Shown: positions 7,425-38,806 of the stretch, piece after piece
Position numbering within the stretch: position 1 is the first letter of the stretch
Layout: each line of letters opens with the position of its first letter
From: Acidobacteriota bacterium
Lineage (GTDB): Bacteria; Acidobacteriota; UBA6911
Assembly: GCA_003225335.1 (NCBI GenBank)
Contig: QHZE01000453.1
Location: forward strand, 1 to 52,785
Length of the DNA stretch: 52,785 nucleotides
Direction of reading: 5' to 3'
The notes under the pieces: model-generated
Told to the model about the DNA's origin: nothing
Seen by the model: only the letters and a program-made list of their open reading frames with translations
The model's database searches: none
Made by a program: the position numbers and the translations under genes

Positions 7425-7600
7425 ACTCGGGCGCAGTGCAGCCCTGAAGGCCGAACTCCTTGAGATGAGTTCGTGGGTTTTTGTTTGGAGTTCAGGCTTC
7501 AGCCCTACTCGGGCGCAGTGCAGCCTCCGAAGGCTGAGCTCCAAACTTGGCCCGAATTGCGGTCGTGGGCTATTATTCGGAGCTCAGGCTTTAGTTTGCG
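7425..7600. repeat. Clustered GAGTTCAGGC-family palindromes with 19-bp direct repeat
   Basis: The 19-mer ACTCGGGCGCAGTGCAGCC occurs at 7425-7443 and again at 7507-7525. Each copy is followed by AAGGC and GAACTCC or GAGCTCC. Between them lies the opposite arm, TTGGAGTTCAGGCTTCAGCC. A third half (GGAGCTCAGGCTTTAG) is at about 7579-7594. The arrangement looks like two tandem insertions of one palindromic element. Confidence 0.7.
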
Positions 7601-8253: not shown

Positions 8254-9264
8254 GTGAAACGCGAAAAGGACGCTCTTCTTGCCGAAAGCGAGATCGTCTC
8301 TGTCCTTCGCAAGCGATTTGGCGGAGAAAGTTTCTCCGTCGTTAAAGGTATCGGAGACGACGCTGCGGTCATTCGGATACCGGGCGCAACGCAATACTGG
8401 GTCCTGACGACCGATCAGCTGCACGAAAATGTTCACTTTCGCCGGGAGTGGACGGGCCCAAAGCAACTGGGGCACAAGGCATTGGCCGTAAACCTGAGCG
8501 ACGTCGCCGCCATGGGGGCCAGGCCGCGATTCTACGTTGTGGCGCTAGCGATTCCTCGATCGCTCCCAAGACCCTGGCTCATTGGTTTCTACGAAGGAAT
8601 GGTGAGGCTGGGCCGAAAGCATCAGGCCATACTGATTGGAGGAGATCTGTCCCATTCAAAGGACGGCCTGCACATATCTCTGGCCGTTCTCGGAGAGTCC
8701 GTGAGAAGGAACGCGCTCTTACGCTGTGGCGGAAAGCCTGGGGATTTCCTTTATGTCACCGGTACTCTCGGGAAATCCGCCGCGGGCCTTCGTCTCCTTC
8801 AAGCAGGAGCGCAAACCGGAAAGACCCCTTCGGAGCGGCAAGCGCTGAAGGCTCATAGGGAGCCGGAGCCGCGTTGCCAGGTCGGAATGTGGCTGGCTCG
8901 GCACGGCTTCTGCCGCGCGATGATGGATCTCAGTGACGGGCTATCGCTGGACCTGCTACGAATGTGCCAGGAAAGCGGCACTGGGGCAGTGGTCCATGGC
9001 GATCGTTCGCCGTTGTTTCCCAGGTCCCGAGCCTGGGGTTGTGATCCGATCGAGCTCGGTCTCCATGGAGGCGAGGATTACGAGCTTCTTTTCGCCGTTC
9101 CGCCGCGCCACGCGCTCTCGCTAGAGAGCGCCTATCCAGCGAAGTACCCGAAAATTACACGAATCGGGATGTTGACGCGGTCCCTGCACATGAAGTGGAT
9201 CCCTGAGTCCAATATGCGGCCGCGTCCCCTGGCTCCTTGCGGCTTCGATCATTTCCGCAGCTGA
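8254..9264 (+). CDS. thiL: Thiamine-monophosphate kinase
   Basis: A 336-residue ThiL/PurM-like kinase. It phosphorylates thiamine monophosphate to thiamine diphosphate with ATP. Family motifs: GIGDDAAV near residue 32, TTDQLHENVHF, the metal-binding GGDLSHSKDG, the acidic DLSDGLSLDL, and GGEDYELLF near the C-terminus. I chose GTG 8254 (VKREKDALLAESEIV) because the family usually begins a few residues before the 'E..ii..l' helix. ATG 8197 would overlap nrdR by 4 nt and adds 19 residues encoded by a repeat. No TPP riboswitch was seen. Confidence 0.9.
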   Translation: MKREKDALLAESEIVSVLRKRFGGESFSVVKGIGDDAAVIRIPGATQYWVLTTDQLHENVHFRREWTGPKQLGHKALAVNLSDVAAMGARPRFYVVALAIPRSLPRPWLIGFYEGMVRLGRKHQAILIGGDLSHSKDGLHISLAVLGESVRRNALLRCGGKPGDFLYVTGTLGKSAAGLRLLQAGAQTGKTPSERQALKAHREPEPRCQVGMWLARHGFCRAMMDLSDGLSLDLLRMCQESGTGAVVHGDRSPLFPRSRAWGCDPIELGLHGGEDYELLFAVPPRHALSLESAYPAKYPKITRIGMLTRSLHMKWIPESNMRPRPLAPCGFDHFRS

Positions 9265-9594
9265 TTCCGCAGAATGAAACCACCGTGAACACCAATGAAC
9301 ACGGATCTGTGTTCATTGGTGGTTCCACTCATGCTCTGGGTATCTTCGAAACTTTTTTGCTTGAAGTGCGTCTGTAACTTCGTGTGTTTCAGTGCACACT
9401 GCATTATTCTGTGATGTAGAGTGAGATCCCGTCCGATAAAATGCAGGAACTCCTGGGCGGTGTGGTATGGCCGTAACAGGTCAACATCAGTCGTAATCCC
9501 CCCCCTGTTTCGCTAAAAATTCGTCATCTCTTGGGTGCAAGTAGCGTGTGCACGTCCGCTGGCTTGAAGTGTGTTCCTATTTTTTTTGTGCGAC
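9265..9594. other. 330-bp intergenic region, one hairpin, otherwise no gene seen
   Basis: Apart from the hairpin at 9280-9330, I see nothing interpretable. There is a run of eight C at about 9498-9506 and a T-run at 9580-9588 just before the DUF2062 gene. Neither strand has a convincing small ORF with a ribosome-binding site. Confidence 0.5.
9280..9330. repeat. ACCACC...GAACAC palindrome after thiL
   Basis: Perfect 13-bp arms CACCAATGAACAC (9290-9302) and GTGTTCATTGGTG (9309-9321) around a 6-nt loop, with partial extension outward. It belongs to the same repeat family as the outer arms at 22091-22115 and 22473-22499. It could terminate thiL transcription, but lacks a T-tract. Confidence 0.75.
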
Positions 9595-10062
9595 ATGTTA
9601 CTGCGAACCTTTACGAATTTTCAGAAACGCCTCTTGGCCCTCGACGACCCGCCCGAACGGATCGCCATAGCCTTTGCCGTTGGCGTGTTCTTTTCTTTTT
9701 CGCCCTTATACGGACTGCACACCTTCCTTGGCCTGACAGTTGCGTTTCTCTTCGGCTTGAACCGCGTTGCACTCCTGCTCGGCCTGTTTGTGAATAATCC
9801 CTGGACCCTCGTGCCGATATATGCTGCTGCCATCTATATAGGCGGTCTGTTCCTCGGCTTTCCACCCGTGGCTCCCTTCCCTCAGTTCGCATGGAAAGAA
9901 GTATTTGAGGGCAGGTTTTGGGTGGAGCTCGCAAGACACTGGCGGCTGCTCATGCCTCTATTCCTGGGTTCCACAATACTCTCCTTTGTGTTTGCAGCAA
10001 TCTCGTATCCATTTGCCTTGCATCTGATGAGGCGCTACAAACACAAGTCCCACTCACATTGA
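9595..10062 (+). CDS. DUF2062 membrane protein
   Basis: A 155-residue protein with the DUF2062 pattern PPERIAIAFAVGVFFSFSPLYG-type segment, then LNRVALLLGLFVNNPWT, with about four membrane segments and a basic tail. The family is widespread but of unclear function; some members sit beside cell-envelope genes. I chose ATG 9595 (MLLRTFTN); the alternative GTG at 9571 adds eight hydrophobic residues. It stands alone, flanked by repeats. Confidence 0.8.
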   Translation: MLLRTFTNFQKRLLALDDPPERIAIAFAVGVFFSFSPLYGLHTFLGLTVAFLFGLNRVALLLGLFVNNPWTLVPIYAAAIYIGGLFLGFPPVAPFPQFAWKEVFEGRFWVELARHWRLLMPLFLGSTILSFVFAAISYPFALHLMRRYKHKSHSH

Positions 10063-10066
10063 CCGC

Positions 10067-10120
10067 TTGGAGTTCAGGCGCCAGCCTGCACTGCGCAGGC
10101 AGGCTAAAGCCGAACTCGAA
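10067..10120. repeat. GAGTTCAGGC-family palindrome
   Basis: GGAGTTCAGGCGCCAGCCTGC on the left and GCAGGCAGGCTAAAGCCGAACTC on the right, around ACT. This is the most complete short copy of the family in the window. It begins 5 nt after the DUF2062 stop codon. Confidence 0.75.
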
Positions 10121-10192
10121 ACAAGTAGGTCGGCGCGGCATCCGGATGCCTGGCGCCTTCCGTTTAGAGTCGCGCGGCGTTAAGATTCGAGC

Positions 10193-11704
10193 ATGAGGCG
10201 GTTTGTCCTGTTTCTCCCCTGGTTGAGCTTCACGCTGGCGCTCCCCGGATTTGCTCTCTCGAACCCACAGCTTGTCGAGGGACTGGTGAACATCAAGTTC
10301 CAGCTTGACAGCCGCGTATTCGCGGCCACGGCCGCCTTGAACGCGGCGGGTTTTGACCTGGATGCGGCAGAGCTAGCCGAAAACCCTCCGCGGAAGTTAG
10401 TGCGGGAATGGTTGTCGCGTATGCCTCCGGAATTGCTGGAACGCCTCCGGCAATTCTACGTCTCGCACGATATGGAGCGGGATCCCTTGAAGCAACAGAG
10501 CAAATACATTTCGTTGTCTCTGTCCCTGACGGGCGCGCCTGAATTCAGATTGAAGGTGAAGCCGCGCGACGCGCCATCGGACGTTCAGTCTCTCATTGGG
10601 TTTGAGGATTTGATCCGGGAGACCTGGGAAAAAGGCGACCTGGTCCGGCTGTGGGGCATGGTCCAGCCCTTCTACTTGAAAGAAATCGAGAGCCAACGGC
10701 CAGTGATTCGGCAAACGATACTGACGTGCTTGCGCTACATGCACACCGAGCCGAGAATTGCGCTGGACCGTCAGGTGATTTTTATACCGGATCTTCTGAA
10801 TGCCTATGGCGTGGTCAACGCCCGGAATCTCGGGGACACGTACATCGTTATCGTGGGTCCGTTCCGTACGGCAAAGTCCATGCACGGGATACGCCATGAG
10901 TACCTGCACTTCATGATCGATCCGCTTATTGCCAAGTACACGGCCTACCTACCCGAGGCCGAGCCCTTTTTGGAATCGGTGCGCCAGCGTCCAAGAGTCC
11001 TCGCACGGTACAAGGAGGACTTTTCCCTGGTTGTTACTGAATCTCTGATTGGAAGTATCGAACGGCGTCTGAACGCCGGGTCCGATGAAGAAAAAGCATT
11101 CCAGTTGGTCACCGGCTATGACGAGGGCTTGGTGCTTGCTCCCTATTTTGAAGAGGCTCTGAAGAAGTTTGAACGCGGGCGCCCCTCGCTGCAGGAGTTC
11201 ATTCCTGAGCTCCTGCAAGGAATTCGCTGGGACATCGAGAAAAAACGCCCTGAGCTCCTCGCCAGACTGAGAGACGAGCTTGCCAGCCGCCACTCTCACC
11301 AGCAGGCTCAAGCGCAAGCCGAAGGGAAGAGGGATCAAGAAGCGCGAGACCTCCTCACGGATGCAAACAAGTCCCTTCTTGCTGGAGAGTTCGATAAAGC
11401 CAAGGAACTGTTGTCGCAGGTCCTGAGGCGCGATCCTGACAACGCCAGTGCCTTGTACGGGATGGCCCAAATCTCCGGGCAGAATCAGGATCTTGAAGGG
11501 GCTCTTGAGCTTTACGAAAGGGCGGCTCGCAATGCGGGGGAGCAGAAGTGGATCGCGGCCTGGTGCCTCGTGCGCCGCGGGAACATCTTCTATTTTCAAC
11601 GAGACACTGCCCGGGCTCGAAGCGAGTGGTCCACCGTTTTGGACATGAAAGGGGACCTCCGCGGCGCCAGAGAGGAAGCCAGCAAAGCCCTCTCCGGCAA
11701 ATGA
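10193..11704 (+). CDS. Exported HExxH protein with C-terminal TPRs
   Basis: A 503-residue protein with a signal peptide at about 1-23 (FVLFLPWLSFTLALPGFALS). In mid-protein, HEYLH (235-239) in HGIRHEYLHFMIDP is a zincin-type HExxH motif. Tetratricopeptide-like helices follow from about 388 to 500 (LLAGEFDKAKELLSQVLRRDP; DLEGALELYERA). A long charged helical stretch precedes the TPRs. The architecture suggests a periplasmic metallopeptidase-like protein with a protein-interaction tail. The third zinc ligand was not identified, so catalytic activity is uncertain. It is not in an obvious operon. Confidence 0.75.
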   Translation: MRRFVLFLPWLSFTLALPGFALSNPQLVEGLVNIKFQLDSRVFAATAALNAAGFDLDAAELAENPPRKLVREWLSRMPPELLERLRQFYVSHDMERDPLKQQSKYISLSLSLTGAPEFRLKVKPRDAPSDVQSLIGFEDLIRETWEKGDLVRLWGMVQPFYLKEIESQRPVIRQTILTCLRYMHTEPRIALDRQVIFIPDLLNAYGVVNARNLGDTYIVIVGPFRTAKSMHGIRHEYLHFMIDPLIAKYTAYLPEAEPFLESVRQRPRVLARYKEDFSLVVTESLIGSIERRLNAGSDEEKAFQLVTGYDEGLVLAPYFEEALKKFERGRPSLQEFIPELLQGIRWDIEKKRPELLARLRDELASRHSHQQAQAQAEGKRDQEARDLLTDANKSLLAGEFDKAKELLSQVLRRDPDNASALYGMAQISGQNQDLEGALELYERAARNAGEQKWIAAWCLVRRGNIFYFQRDTARARSEWSTVLDMKGDLRGAREEASKALSGK

Positions 11705-11705
11705 G

Positions 11706-11952
11706 TATGGAGTTCAGGCTTTAGCCTGCACAGAAGCGGCCGAGTCTGGCAGGCAGCCTAAGGGGCCGTCACAGAATAACATTTACACTTTGGCGCGAGC
11801 GCCGAGGGGCCGGATGCTAGGCCCCCGACGCAGGCGATGGCGCTGTGCATCGTCGAGGAGCGCCAACAACGCAGACGGCTCCTCGCCGCCGCGCCCCTTC
11901 GGGCTAAAGTGCAAATCTTATTCTGTGACGGGCCCTAGGGCTGAACTCCATG
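11706..11952. repeat. GAGTTCAGGC palindrome interrupted by a composite element
   Basis: The left arm ATGGAGTTCAGGCTTTAGCC begins at 11706, with its partner GGCAGGCAGCCTAAG ending near 11761. The matching right end, CTAGGGCTGAACTCCAT, is at 11936-11952. The 175-bp element at 11762-11936 sits between them, so the outer palindrome was split by an insertion. CCTAAGG on the left and CCTAGGG on the right could be a target duplication with one change. Confidence 0.7.
11762..11936. mobile_element. Composite palindromic element, copy 1 (non-autonomous)
   Basis: Imperfect terminal inverted repeats of about 31 bp: GGGCCGTCACAGAATAA at the left end, TTATTCTGTGACGGGCC at the right, continuing inward as CATTTACACTTT / AAAGTGCAAAT. 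Inside are hairpins GGGGCC/GGCCCC (about 11805-11826), GGCGATG/CATCGTC (around 11833-11854) and GAGGAGC/GCTCCTC (about 11855-11888). The core words CGACGCAGGCGATG (11826-11839) and CATCGTCGAGGAGC (11848-11861) recur exactly in copy 2 at 38705-38738. No ORF is inside; it is MITE-like or a structured repeat. Confidence 0.75.
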
Positions 11953-12061
11953 AGGACCAAGCGGCGTCCTCGCTTTCCAAACCGAATACCAGCGAGTAGA
12001 ATACGCTTGTCTGGCAGAATGAGTCATCTTTGGGATGCCAGATTCATCTGAGGGGATTCGA

Positions 12062-12205
12062 ATGCAGCGAACCATCGCCGCAATCGTTGCGGTAGGGCTT
12101 CTACTGGAAGCTGCCAGCGGCGGCCTGTTGTCTCAATCGGCCCCGCCATTGGGCCGCTGGGAAGGCAAGGTCGAATCGCAGCGAGGGGAAGTTGCCGCTT
12201 TGTGA
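12062..12205 (+). CDS. Small exported peptide or truncated gene remnant upstream of rnc
   Basis: A 47-codon frame: MQRTIAAIVAVGLLLEAASG followed by a short tail containing PPLGRWEGKVES, ending TGA 11 nt before the rnc ATG. GAGGGG lies 6 nt before its ATG. The first 25 residues look like a signal peptide. The tail 'GRWEGKVE' resembles the beginning of secreted beta-rich domains found after signal peptides in larger proteins, so this may be the stump of a longer gene rather than a true small protein. It is close enough to rnc to be cotranscribed. Confidence 0.45.
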   Translation: MQRTIAAIVAVGLLLEAASGGLLSQSAPPLGRWEGKVESQRGEVAAL

Positions 12206-12216
12206 GGGAAGTAGGA

Positions 12217-12936
12217 ATGGAACAGCCCGAAGAGACGCTCCCAAAGGCTTCCATAGAAGAACTCGAGTCACTGCTGGGGTATCGGTTTAAAGATCAGGAG
12301 GTGCTCCTGCGTGCCCTGACCCATCGCTCTTTCGTGAATGAACATGAAGGGGAACGGTTTCAGGATAACGAGTCTCTGGAGTTCCTTGGCGATGCGGTTC
12401 TCGGGTTTGTGGTCAGTTCCAGGATCTTTCAGCGATTTCCCGATCTCACCGAAGGAGAGCTCAGCAAGATAAAAGCTTTCCTCGTGAGCGCGGCAAGCCT
12501 GGTTCGCTTGGCCGAGAGGGTCCGGCTTGGCGAATTCCTGCGCCTCAGCAGGGGCGAGGACAAGACCGGAGGCCGGCGGAAGAGAGCCATCCTGGTCGAT
12601 GCCTATGAAGCGATAATTGGGGCTGTCTATCTGGATGGAGGAGTGGAGGCCGCGTCCGCCTTTGTCGATCGCGAAGTCGGAGACTTTCTCGACAACATAA
12701 ATGTCCGGGAATTCATCTACGGCGATTTCAAATCCGCTCTCCAGGAGCAGTTGCACAATCTAGGCTATCCCGAACCGATGTATCGCGTAGTGGATGAGAT
12801 CGGTCCGGATCACAAAAAGCTATTCGTGGTGGAGGTGGTGGTCACCGATCGTCTGGCGGCTCAGGCCTCGGGACGAACGAAAAAAGAGGCTCAACAGGCT
12901 GCCGCCAGGCGCGCACTCCAGAGTCTCAAGGAATGA
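12217..12936 (+). CDS. rnc: Ribonuclease III
   Basis: A 239-residue double-strand-specific endoribonuclease for rRNA and mRNA processing. The catalytic signature NESLEFLGDAVLG is at 51-63, with the downstream acidic DAYEAIIGAVYLDGG motif around 128-142. A double-stranded RNA-binding domain spans about 162-235 and ends KKEAQQAAARRALQSL. I chose ATG 12217 over GTG 12202. Its stop TGA overlaps the ATG of a 55-codon membrane-protein frame, so translation is likely coupled. Confidence 0.97.
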   Translation: MEQPEETLPKASIEELESLLGYRFKDQEVLLRALTHRSFVNEHEGERFQDNESLEFLGDAVLGFVVSSRIFQRFPDLTEGELSKIKAFLVSAASLVRLAERVRLGEFLRLSRGEDKTGGRRKRAILVDAYEAIIGAVYLDGGVEAASAFVDREVGDFLDNINVREFIYGDFKSALQEQLHNLGYPEPMYRVVDEIGPDHKKLFVVEVVVTDRLAAQASGRTKKEAQQAAARRALQSLKE

Positions 12937-13100
12937 TAGGGTACTATACTGGACGGTTTCTCCAACTGGCCGGACTCATCATTGTGGCAGAAACACTGAT
13001 CATGTTCTTTGGCCGGATGATGCCACTGCTGAAAGGCTCCCTCGCAGGAGTCTTGGTCTTTTACCTCGGTTACTTTCTGGCTCGAAAGTTCAGTGCCTGA
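12933..13100 (+). CDS. Small two-TM membrane protein overlapping rnc
   Basis: A 55-residue frame starting MIGYYTGRFLQLAGLIIVAE. Two hydrophobic helices (about 11-25 and 37-49) are separated by a basic, methionine-rich turn (FFGRMMPLLKG), and it ends LARKFSA. The ATG overlaps the rnc stop codon as ATGA, the usual sign of translational coupling. Hydrophobic periodicity and a clean stop at 13100 support a real gene, but I do not recognise a family. It has no ribosome-binding site of its own beyond the AAGGA at the end of rnc. Confidence 0.65.
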   Translation: MIGYYTGRFLQLAGLIIVAETLIMFFGRMMPLLKGSLAGVLVFYLGYFLARKFSA

Positions 13101-13175
13101 AATAGGCGATGTTGGGACGCGATGAACAGGATTTTCCGGACAGAATAACCGGATTTGGTGGAGGAAAGCCGCTCG

Positions 13176-14618
13176 TTAGTTAGAAAGCGTCTGTAGCATT
13201 TTGTTTGCTTCGGGATTTTCGGGATCCCATCGCAGCACCTCCTGAAACTGCGTCTCAGCGCGTTTGGGGAGGTTGACTTTGATATACAGTTTTCCTAGCG
13301 CGATCCTGCTCTCCAACATCATAGGCTCGAGCGTGATAGCCCTGAGCAGATTGTCTTCGGCTTCCTTTCGCAGTTTTGGGATCTCCGACTGTGCGACGCC
13401 GAGATAGTGCCGGTAGTGGGCGAGGTCAGGCCGAGTCCAGACGCAAGTTTTGAGACAGGTCACAGCCTTTTCGAAGTCTCCCTTTCCAATGAAAGCCCGT
13501 CCGGAACGATAGAGCGACTCCGCCATTTTTTCCTGCTCCGCGTCAACTCCGGTGATAGCGCGCTGAACCGCTTCCACGCGACCACCCTCCTTGCGCCGCG
13601 TGTCATCATAGCTTGCGCGAGCAGCCGGCTCGCTGAGGGTCGTGTAGGCGCCTGTGATGTAAGTAAACAGCTTTTCCACTTGGCTTCTGAAAACCGGCGT
13701 GTACTCCTCCGTTTGGAACCGGTCCGGGTGAAATTCCTTGGCCAGTTCGTGATAGGCGTTCTTGATCTGCTCTTCGCCGGCATCCGTGGCAACCGAGAGG
13801 ATTTCGTAGTGATCGGCCACTTCGTATTGTTCAAGAAGTTCCTCAACACGCCTCGCCACAGGTTTGGCCGCAGTCGTTGGGTTAACTGCCCCACCTTCAG
13901 TTTTCAGGCTGGGGGATTCCAGCCGCAGGAGCCCGAGCAAAAAAAGCCGCAGAAGCAGATTGTCCGATGCTACCGAACCGGATGGTATGAGGTCGAGAAG
14001 CTTTTTGACCGCTATAGGTTCCCGAACCAAAGAGTATGTTTGCCCCTCGAGATTGTCCAAAGGAAGGTTCAGCCGCGCAGGATTGTTGGAGCCGTCCTGA
14101 GTAACATACCCATCGAGCTTTTTTAAAGCGTCCGGGAGCTGCTTCGTGTCAACAGCCCTTCGTGCTGCCAAGACGAGCATTTGAGGTATCGGAGTCTTGA
14201 GACCCACCTGACGGCGGCTGAGTCCGTCTCCTGGGTAGAACCGGGTCTCGCAGGAATCCCATGAGAACAGGGACGCCAGAATGAGGAGGGCCTGCTCGCG
14301 TACACCATCCTCAAGGCCCGCGGCATCCACTCTCTGGGTAGCTAAGACGGCCTCTTCGGTGTTCTTTCCGGCCTTCATCAGATCCGTAACTTGGGTCAGG
14401 TCGGCGCGAGGCAAGCGATTAAGCTTCACTAGAATCCGAGCCAGGTGTTCTTCAGGCAGGTTGCTCTCCGCGCAGGCGATGTCCCCGTTGCGAACAATCA
14501 CCTGCTTTTTTGCCGTTCCCTTTTCGAAGCGAAGGATCCCACTCTGACCCGTAGTGTGAATCTGAAGGAGGACATCTACGAAGTTTTGGGAAGGCCTTCC
14601 TGCATCTGGCATAGTCAT
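13176..14618 (-). CDS. DUF4388-like, J-domain and TPR multidomain protein
   Basis: A 480-residue protein. Residues about 10-235 resemble the PATAN/DUF4388 region of bacterial signalling proteins (LLQIHTTGQSGILRFEKGTAKKQVIVRNGDI pattern). A J-domain spans about 268-341 (DHYEILSV) with the HPD triad at 297-299, which recruits DnaK. A TPR array follows to the end (RSGRAFIGKGDFEKAVTCLK; LPKRAETQFQEVLRWDPENP). The combination suggests a DnaK co-chaperone that couples a regulatory sensor to protein complexes. ATG 14612 (second codon pair) is an alternative start. It stands alone and converges with the rnc cluster. Confidence 0.85.
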   Translation of the reverse strand: MTMPDAGRPSQNFVDVLLQIHTTGQSGILRFEKGTAKKQVIVRNGDIACAESNLPEEHLARILVKLNRLPRADLTQVTDLMKAGKNTEEAVLATQRVDAAGLEDGVREQALLILASLFSWDSCETRFYPGDGLSRRQVGLKTPIPQMLVLAARRAVDTKQLPDALKKLDGYVTQDGSNNPARLNLPLDNLEGQTYSLVREPIAVKKLLDLIPSGSVASDNLLLRLFLLGLLRLESPSLKTEGGAVNPTTAAKPVARRVEELLEQYEVADHYEILSVATDAGEEQIKNAYHELAKEFHPDRFQTEEYTPVFRSQVEKLFTYITGAYTTLSEPAARASYDDTRRKEGGRVEAVQRAITGVDAEQEKMAESLYRSGRAFIGKGDFEKAVTCLKTCVWTRPDLAHYRHYLGVAQSEIPKLRKEAEDNLLRAITLEPMMLESRIALGKLYIKVNLPKRAETQFQEVLRWDPENPEANKMLQTLSN

Positions 14619-22108: not shown

Positions 22109-22499
22109 TGCACACAGTTGTGTTTGGAGTTCAGGTTTTAGCCCGCTCAGAGAGCGAACTTTTTCGGCAGCCCAAAGGCTGAGCTCCAATGATCGATGAC
22201 AAGTGACCAATGAAGGATGTGGGATTTGCAGATTCGTTCCATGCCTGCGATTTGTCATTTTTTCATTTGCCATTTGTCATTTGAAAAATATTGGTCTGCG
22301 TTCTCTGCGGAAGTGAGAAAAAAATCGTGACGTCCCGTGCCGCGGGACATCGGGGCCTGGGTGGCTCCTTTTGCGTCAACAGGACCGTTTGCCCCGCCAG
22401 TGCGGGACGCTACATTTTTTCTCACGTCCTGCGACTCTGCGGTGAACGTGTTTGGTTGCGGCTGGCTGCGCCGTGTTTATCGGTGTTCCTCGGTGGTTT
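22091..22499. repeat. Nested set of palindromic repeats between mtaB and acpS
   Basis: Outer arms: ACCACCGATGAACACTGATG (22091) and GTTTATCGGTGTTCCTCGGT (22475), the family of 9280-9330. Inside the left part is a GAGTTCAGG...GAGCTCC palindrome (22125-22190), then AT-rich ATTTGTCATTT words (22250-22285). A further inverted pair follows: CTGCGTTCTCTGCGG, GTGAGAAAAA, GACGTCCCG (22296-22337) against CGGGACGC, TTTTTTCTCACGTC, CTCTGCGG (22403-22447). The stretch has no gene. Confidence 0.7.
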
Positions 22500-37733: not shown

Positions 37734-38577
37734 AGGTCTCAGTGCGCTGATTCCCGAAATCGATGCGCCCGCTGTAGTCCCGAACGAAATAGATATCGAC
37801 CGGATAGAACCCAATCCCGACCAGCCTCGCTTCAAGCTCGAGGAGTCGCGGACGGAGGAACTGGCTGCCTCCATTCGGGAAAACGGAGTCTTGCAGCCCG
37901 TTCTCGTACGACCGCTTGGAAATCGTTACCAGCTCGTAGCAGGCGAGAGACGCCTGGCCGCCGCTCAGAGGGCGGGGCTGCTCAAGATACCGGCCGTCGT
38001 TAGAAACGTTCCCGACGACAAGCTTTTGGAGCTCGCCCTGGTTGAGAACATCCAGCGGGAACAGCTCAACCCTGTGGAAGAGGCACAGGCATATCAGAAT
38101 CTGCTCGAAACGCTGGGTCTGACACAAGACCAACTGGCAACCAAACTGGGCAAGGAACGGAGCACCATTGCGAACGCTCTCAGGCTGCTCAGGCTCCCCC
38201 CCGGTGTGAAGGTTCTGGTCGCGGAAGGGAAGCTTTCCGCGGGACATGCGCGAGCGCTTCTGGCGTCCAATGCCGGTTCCGCGGAAATGACCCGGATCGC
38301 GCACGCAATTGTGGAGAAATCATGGTCGGTTCGGGAGGCAGAGCAATGGGCACAGAGACAGGCCAAAAAAACGCCTGCTGGCAACGCTCCGGACCCGAAC
38401 GTTTCTGCCGCAGCGGACAAACTGAGACTGATTTTTGGCACTAAAGTGGAAATCGTCAACACCAGGGGAAATCCGGGTAGTGGTAAAATCCAGATCTTTT
38501 TCTACAGCCCGGAAGACCTCGAGCGAATTTACGGCGTTCTCACAGCCAAGAACTCTTTAGGGCTCGCGCAAGAATAA
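37711..38577 (+). CDS. parB: Chromosome partitioning protein ParB (Spo0J)
   Basis: A 288-residue ParB-CTPase. It begins MKRKALGKGLSALIPE, with the ParB N-domain including NPDQPR, then the CTP-binding GERRLAAA region (GERR at 78-81), then the ENIQREQLNPVEEA motif, a KorB-like HTH (LTQDQLATKLGKERSTIANALR), and a C-terminal dimer domain. The final residues (LGLAQE) and stop TAA are encoded by the left terminal arm of the composite element at 38557-38806. Confidence 0.96.
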   Translation: MKRKALGKGLSALIPEIDAPAVVPNEIDIDRIEPNPDQPRFKLEESRTEELAASIRENGVLQPVLVRPLGNRYQLVAGERRLAAAQRAGLLKIPAVVRNVPDDKLLELALVENIQREQLNPVEEAQAYQNLLETLGLTQDQLATKLGKERSTIANALRLLRLPPGVKVLVAEGKLSAGHARALLASNAGSAEMTRIAHAIVEKSWSVREAEQWAQRQAKKTPAGNAPDPNVSAAADKLRLIFGTKVEIVNTRGNPGSGKIQIFFYSPEDLERIYGVLTAKNSLGLAQE

Positions 38578-38806
38578 TTTTGGCATTTTGCTGCGGGTTC
38601 CCATGCCCAATTGAATCATAACCAGCAAACCTCAATAGTTTGCCAGGCATGGGAGCCGCAGCCCTACGAGGCGCGAGCGCCGGGCGGGCAGGTGCAAGGC
38701 GCCGCGACGCAGGCGATGTGGTGACATCGTCGAGGAGCAGCAACGCCGCAGATGCCCGCCCAGCGCTCGCGCCAAAATGCCAACTTAGTCTTGTGCGAGC
38801 CCTTAG
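38557..38806. mobile_element. Composite palindromic element, copy 2 (non-autonomous)
   Basis: About 33-bp imperfect terminal inverted repeats: TTAGGGCTCGCGCAAGAATA at 38557 and, in reverse orientation, GTCTTGTGCGAGCCCTTA ending at 38806; inner parts TTTTGGCATTTTG / CAAAATGCCAA. Inside are hairpin TGCGGGTTCCCATGCC / GGCATGGGAGCCGCA (about 38591-38661) and a 20-bp-arm hairpin GCGCGAGCGCCGGGCGGGCA / TGCCCGCCCAGCGCTCGCGC (about 38669-38772). At its apex sits the core CGACGCAGGCGATG (38705-38718) and CATCGTCGAGGAGC (38725-38738), shared exactly with copy 1. The element has no ORF. Confidence 0.8.

Follow-up and report, generated by a model that had tools for sequence, protein, structure and literature searches.

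The window, a 52,785-nucleotide stretch of contig C354 from a 7.54-Mb, 795-contig draft genome (G000), contains a 497-bp intergenic gap between the end of an open reading frame (ORF1) at 11704 and the RNase III gene (rnc) at 12202. In this gap, GGAGTTCAGGC...CCTAA is followed by 174 bp and then by TAGGGCTGAACTCC, so that a GGAGTTCAGGC palindrome (11709–11949), hereafter the outer palindrome, is interrupted by an inverted-repeat element, hereafter the inner element (Table 1). An Rfam search of 9000–13500 gave no match. The content of a preliminary description, which saw here a palindrome split by another element, was retained, and its positions were moved by a few bases: the left arm GGAGTTCAGGCTTTAGCCTGC begins at 11709 instead of 11706, the inner element is 174 bp long, not 175 bp, and the unsplit palindrome used for comparison spans 10069–10117, not 10067–10120. 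The second inner-family element in the window is located directly upstream of AGGAGGCATGCCATG, which resembles a ribosome-binding site followed by a start codon.

Table 1. Outer palindromes and inner-family elements in the window
Feature	Position	Strand	Remarks
Outer palindrome, left part (arm GGAGTTCAGGCTTTAGCCTGC, loop and start of the right arm; ends with TAA, the left flanking triplet)	11709–11761	+	26.5 bits alone, outer-family HMM
Inner MITE, 174 bp (ends GGGGCCGTCACAGAATAA / TTATTCTGTGACGGGCCC)	11762–11935		Internal deletion relative to family members of ~272 bp
Right flanking triplet TAG	11936–11938		A perfect duplication would give TAA
Outer palindrome, right remainder TAGGGCTGAACTCC	11936–11949	+	3.5 bits alone, outer-family HMM
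Unsplit outer palindrome (comparison copy)	10069–10117	-	HMM 19.1 bits on -, 13.4 bits on +
Second inner-family element, 243 bp	38560–38802		TTA on both sides; outside any outer palindrome
Unsplit outer palindrome	7487–7542	+	HMM 36.7 bits
Unsplit outer palindrome	22126–22187	+	HMM 34.4 bits

The inner element has the features of a MITE: it is short, carries terminal inverted repeats (TIRs) and has no transposase gene, and its arms (11754–11798 and 11899–11943) are 84% complementary. G000 has at least dozens of copies of it. A search with the locus, in which 40 candidates were scored, returned 53 match rows in this genome, the closest of which (C383) is 95% identical over 148 bp, while most others are about 80% identical. 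TIR matches with at most one mismatch numbered 155 against none in the control, as expected of a MITE with many dispersed copies, and were present in 11 of the 40 genomes searched, G000 included. The 46 copies for which both ends were paired are 142–281 bp in length; full-length copies measure about 270–273 bp, and the window copy is short of about 100 bp in its right half. The ends fall into the subfamilies GGGCCCGTCAGRAAATAA, GGGCTCGCGCAGAAATAA, GGGCTCGCGCAAGAATAA and GGGCCCGTCACAGAATAA, the last being the window type. In two copies (L165 and L202) the two ends come from different TIR subfamilies, and in L165 the flanking triplets differ too (TTA and TAA), which suggests recombination between copies. 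Other inner elements (L162, L166, L193 and L201) adjoin further palindromic repeats of the GGCCATG... and CCCCTGGCTAAG types, which indicates that several repeat families cluster in the non-coding DNA of G000.

The outer palindrome likewise belongs to a large family. There are 334 occurrences of GGAGTTCAGGC in G000, 145 of them forward and 189 reverse, against 3 in the control, and the two-arm pattern identified 165 palindromes (control, 0). The 46 pattern matches in 40 fetched regions consist of GTTYGGAGTTCAGGCTTTAGCCTGC-loop-GCAGCCTGAAGGCTGAACTCCAAAC or close variants; the window copy is a variant with GCAGCCTAAAGGCTGAAC, its nearest copies being L266 and L278. Tandem arrays were found in C29 (three copies 65 bp apart) and C167 (copies 88 bp apart). 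The high copy number (165 palindromes, 459 arm cores), inverted pairing and tandem arrays are characteristic of REP/REPIN sequences; the consensus head is GGAG, not the end tag GTAG or CGTC.

The earlier claim that the outer and inner sequences come from two different repeat families is supported. The further claim that joining the flanks restores a typical outer palindrome was also confirmed: with an HMM of 39 outer copies, the joined window flanks scored 40.3 bits, compared with 26.5 (left) and 3.5 (right) separately. Scored against 39 outer copies, the joined sequence gave 42.0 when TAG was dropped and 40.0 when TAA was dropped, and none of 300 shuffles of the latter exceeded 10.5. Three further insertions into outer repeats were found. 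In L146, a complete outer palindrome is split, with both arms preserved, TTA on each side and a joined score of 49.2 bits. In L135 (G000:C6:10301-11095), a single outer left arm contains a tandem pair of inner-family elements, flanked by GGAGTTCAGGCTTTA and TTAGCCTGC. Each of its junctions reads TTA, and the right arm is beyond the contig; the joined sequence of L135 used for HMM scoring carried one surplus T. In L190, the insertion is in the outer left arm and the triplets are CTA/TTA. One arm is rejoined across the insertion in both L135 and L190. The pattern in L135 looks as if the second element had reused the duplicated target of the first. Given the joined-arm evidence and these independent cases, the insertion order proposed for the window locus, inner into pre-existing outer, holds.

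The same order was sought at orthologous sites. The locus was searched against 40 relatives, none of which is of the same genus, and a search of a wider collection of genome contigs with ORF1 gave no match. When ORF1 and RNase III were compared by tblastn with 16 loci (L010–L025), the gene order was kept in only two, in G001 (L013) and G004 (L019), where ORF1 is 51% and 50% identical and RNase III 67% and 68% identical to the window genes, respectively. Their gaps are about 200 bp and 90 bp, respectively, versus 497 bp in the window. Neither gap yielded an HMM match to the outer element at E values up to 10, and the best matches to the inner TIR had 5 and 6 mismatches out of 18. The comparison of orthologous regions recommended in the preliminary description was carried out in this way, and the outer-alone state is not visible in these two gaps. 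Since both gaps lack either element, both insertions are extra in the G000 lineage, and the order of insertion rests on the joined-arm evidence.

We then consider what the inner element targets. Among the 46 paired copies, the flanking triplets were TAA/TAA in 20, TTA/TTA in 19 and other combinations in 7, i.e., identical in 39. These copies derive from 70 G000 regions taken from among the TIR matches listed (155 in total); because the listed G000 matches have no mismatch to a pattern starting with TWA, the selection favoured TWA at the matched end but had no bearing on whether the two triplets agree. In a set chosen by similarity and not selected for TWA, 21 of 25 paired copies had identical TTA or TAA triplets (29 matches examined, with L031, L035, L040 and L054 dropped), although this set shares many elements with the 46 copies. 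In addition, C precedes and G follows the triplet (CTWAG) in 28 of the 46 copies and in 14 of the 25, compared with 5.9% (32/541) of TWA sites in the window (binomial P ~4e-23 for the 46 copies). The triplet identity and the CTWAG enrichment together define the target as TWA, with CTWAG preferred. A 3-bp target duplication of fixed length was found across the family, and that of the window copy is imperfect (TAA/TAG).

The preliminary description had taken the palindrome itself as a likely target-site rule, and the outer palindrome, as a hairpin or through its arms, might indeed be a preferred target, as REPs are for some insertion sequences (ISs). Insertions into outer repeats at the window locus, L146, L135 and L190 would fit this possibility, as would L153, in which a one-ended match (E 0.14) ends in the outer arm GGGGTTCAGGCTTTA with its other side beyond the contig, and the insertion of ISs into REPs has precedent in PMC1525189. 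However, when 69 inner elements, 46 of them paired and 23 one-ended, were scored across their junctions, an outer-family match was obtained for 3, plus 1 possible case (L153). The mismatch limit excluded region L204 and the divergent first element of L135 from this set. Summed by hand, outer repeats account for about 0.6% of the window. Non-coding DNA makes up ~15% of the window (a greedy ORF count gave a coding fraction of 0.854), and the repeats occupy about 4% of it, so chance would place about 2.8 of 69 elements in them if non-coding DNA is hit at random; this figure is a rough hand estimate and approximate, the window being a non-random sample. The insertion positions also vary among the left arm, loop and right arm. 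A preference for the palindrome is therefore unlikely, palindromes being hit at about the same rate as the rest of the non-coding DNA, and the rule is the 3-bp TWA, usually within CTWAG. Inner copies without outer arms, which the preliminary description had named as evidence against its reading, make up the majority; they rule out a palindrome-specific target and leave the nesting intact. The inner element can land in the outer palindrome, but the palindrome is not its target rule.

A candidate transposase came from the relative G023, which contains a 2005-bp IS (C664:222-2226) with two ORFs, the second encoding a PF07592 (ISAzo13) transposase (E 5.8e-111). Its ends are identical to those of subfamily-B MITEs at 25–27 of 30 positions; the resemblance to the window-copy ends is weaker (22–24 of 32 aligned columns). 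The triplets flanking the IS itself are TAA and TTA. Another PF07592 transposase, in G028:C267 (E 2.1e-113), has one similar end adjoining the gene. PF07592 was found in 10 of the 40 genomes, with no match in the G000 assembly, a 795-contig draft, or in six same-family relatives that have TIR matches (G003, G006, G007, G011, G012 and G013). A MITE need not strictly have an autonomous partner in the same genome. Thus, of the features looked for in an ISAzo13 derivative, ends in common with a PF07592-bearing element and a 3-bp duplication were found, and an autonomous partner in the G000 assembly was not; as a contig bearing one is possibly missing, the claim of ISAzo13 origin rests on the shared ends. 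As PF07592 was found neither in G000 nor in the TIR-rich members of its family, an ISAzo13-type enzyme is only the inferred driver in the G000 lineage, where it may have become extinct or may reside on unbinned contigs. In G003, TIR matches lie about 117–138 bp from the ends of contigs C72, C74, C80, C82 and C113, a placement that would fit a longer repeated element breaking the assembly, possibly an unbinned IS.

The absence of a PF07592 gene from the G000 assembly and the several positions at which the window-subfamily ends differ from the G023 IS would also be compatible with a MITE mobilised by some other transposase family that acts on ends similar to ISAzo13-type ones. High-copy ISs are often missing from draft MAG assemblies, however, and the match of subfamily-B ends to the G023 IS, together with the second PF07592 case in G028 and its matching end, leaves this alternative little probability. 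The 3-bp duplication also agrees with what passages of PMC10045372 state for ISAzo13 elements, which produce 3-bp TSDs. The idea that no insertion occurred and that outer and inner sequence form one big composite repeat, always mobile as a unit, draws on the foldability of the whole 241 bp as a single long hairpin (-137.4 kcal/mol as RNA) and is almost certainly wrong, being already contradicted by the 165 outer palindromes of G000 that fit the two-arm pattern without an insert of such size, by the lack of outer arms around most inner copies (2 of 47 rows are bracketed, one being the window copy) and by the known repeat restored on joining the flanks.

Taken together, the shared IS ends, the 3-bp TWA flanks and the restored outer repeat lead us to conclude, with a probability of about 90%, that the inner 174 bp is an ISAzo13-type MITE that moved in trans into a REP/REPIN-like outer palindrome already present. 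The two families, the ends held in common with a transposase-bearing IS, the family-wide 3-bp TWA duplications and the restoration of the outer repeat on joining are direct observations; counting against this conclusion, no relative has the outer palindrome alone at this locus, PF07592 was found neither in the G000 assembly nor in the six same-family relatives, the window copy has unequal triplets and ends less like those of the IS, and the triplets of the G023 IS are unequal too. The MITE would be a non-coding derivative that retains the ends on which an ISAzo13-family transposase acts. Such an enzyme, encoded elsewhere, would move it in trans into a TAA (in a CTAA context) of the outer right arm, and staggered cutting and repair would generate the 3-bp duplication. 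Later point change would have altered one triplet (TAA/TAG) and one terminal base (GGGGCC for GGGCCC).

The outer repeat is the odder part of this nesting. Despite its 459 arm cores in G000 it is very rare among the 39 relatives sampled, and yet Planctomycetes MAGs contain exact copies of its 21-bp arm. The two-arm pattern was matched 0 to 3 times in each of the 39 relatives, at or near the respective control count. The exact 21-mer GGAGTTCAGGCTTTAGCCTGC was found in at least 23 contig stretches (L241–L263); among the matches listed, 21 are planctomycete-named records (one Schlesneria) and 2 are in one Acidobacteria-named MAG, so the arm is exactly common to two phyla, with tens of copies in some MAGs. 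Arm cores numbered 124 in G040, 72 in G042, 51 in G045, 32 in G043, 11 each in G041 and G044, 10 in G046 and 1 in G047, and the reversed controls gave 0 except for 1 in G043. Some Planctomycetes copies (L256, L248 and L262) retain the asymmetric right arm GCAGCCTGAAGGCTGAACTCC. We take G000 itself to be a member of Acidobacteriota, as its 16S gene contains an exact Acd31F motif and has 4 mismatches to the PLA46F motif. Common descent by transfer is the likely origin of the cross-phylum arm; binning errors and convergence are also possible.

A RAYT as the driver of the outer repeat was rejected for the 32 Y1_Tnp loci examined (2 in G000 and 30 of the 33 matches in G040, G042, G043, G045 and G046), where no outer palindrome adjoins the gene; two lone arm cores were present, neither of them a palindrome. 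The arm string did not occur in the full-text literature searched, which is weak evidence because sequences are seldom printed in text. We tentatively raise the possibility that the outer palindrome, on this reading a REPIN-like doublet, has passed between Acidobacteriota and Planctomycetota, with an exact 21-bp arm, a TTTA/TGAA arm asymmetry in some copies and tens to hundreds of copies without an adjoining RAYT. A driver hitherto unconnected with repeats of this kind might then have moved it, and MITEs would land in it without its taking any active part. Since RAYTs are the usual explanation for REP-type repeats, a cross-phylum palindrome without an adjoining RAYT would carry greater weight if confirmed.

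The nesting of a MITE in a REP-like palindrome is real and well supported, and it is of a type already familiar in bacterial genomes. The locus provides a clean, replicated example of a MITE within a palindromic repeat, and it introduces a previously uncharacterised MITE family tied to ISAzo13 transposases with a 3-bp TWA target. By the TWA rule, the prior site of each copy can be reconstructed by removing the element and one TWA.

With respect to known systems, the inner element resembles the ISAzo13 family (PF07592, DDE_Tnp_ISAZ013) in its ends, closely similar to those of the 2005-bp PF07592 element, and in its 3-bp target duplication, and differs in its lack of transposase coding capacity at 142–281 bp and in the absence of PF07592 from the host assembly. 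The literature searched, in the form of listings and some passages, contained no MITE of ISAzo13 origin. In being short and non-coding, with inverted ends, direct flanking repeats and many copies, the inner element is like the bacterial MITEs NEMIS, ERIC and Nezha as covered by passages of PMC3733652, but it is of a different sequence family. The outer repeat is like REP/REPIN/BIME sequences, as it comprises hundreds of imperfect palindromes, some of them in tandem, in which the two arms are inverted and each includes a small palindrome; unlike them, it has the head GGAG, no Y1/RAYT adjoining in 32 loci and an arm present in two phyla. Finally, PMC1525189 reports ISPsy8, ISPa11, ISPpu9, ISPpu10, ISRm19 and ISRm22 to insert specifically into REPs, and the locus described here is likewise a mobile element within a repeated extragenic palindrome, whereas most inner copies are located elsewhere and the insertion site is TWA/CTWAG.
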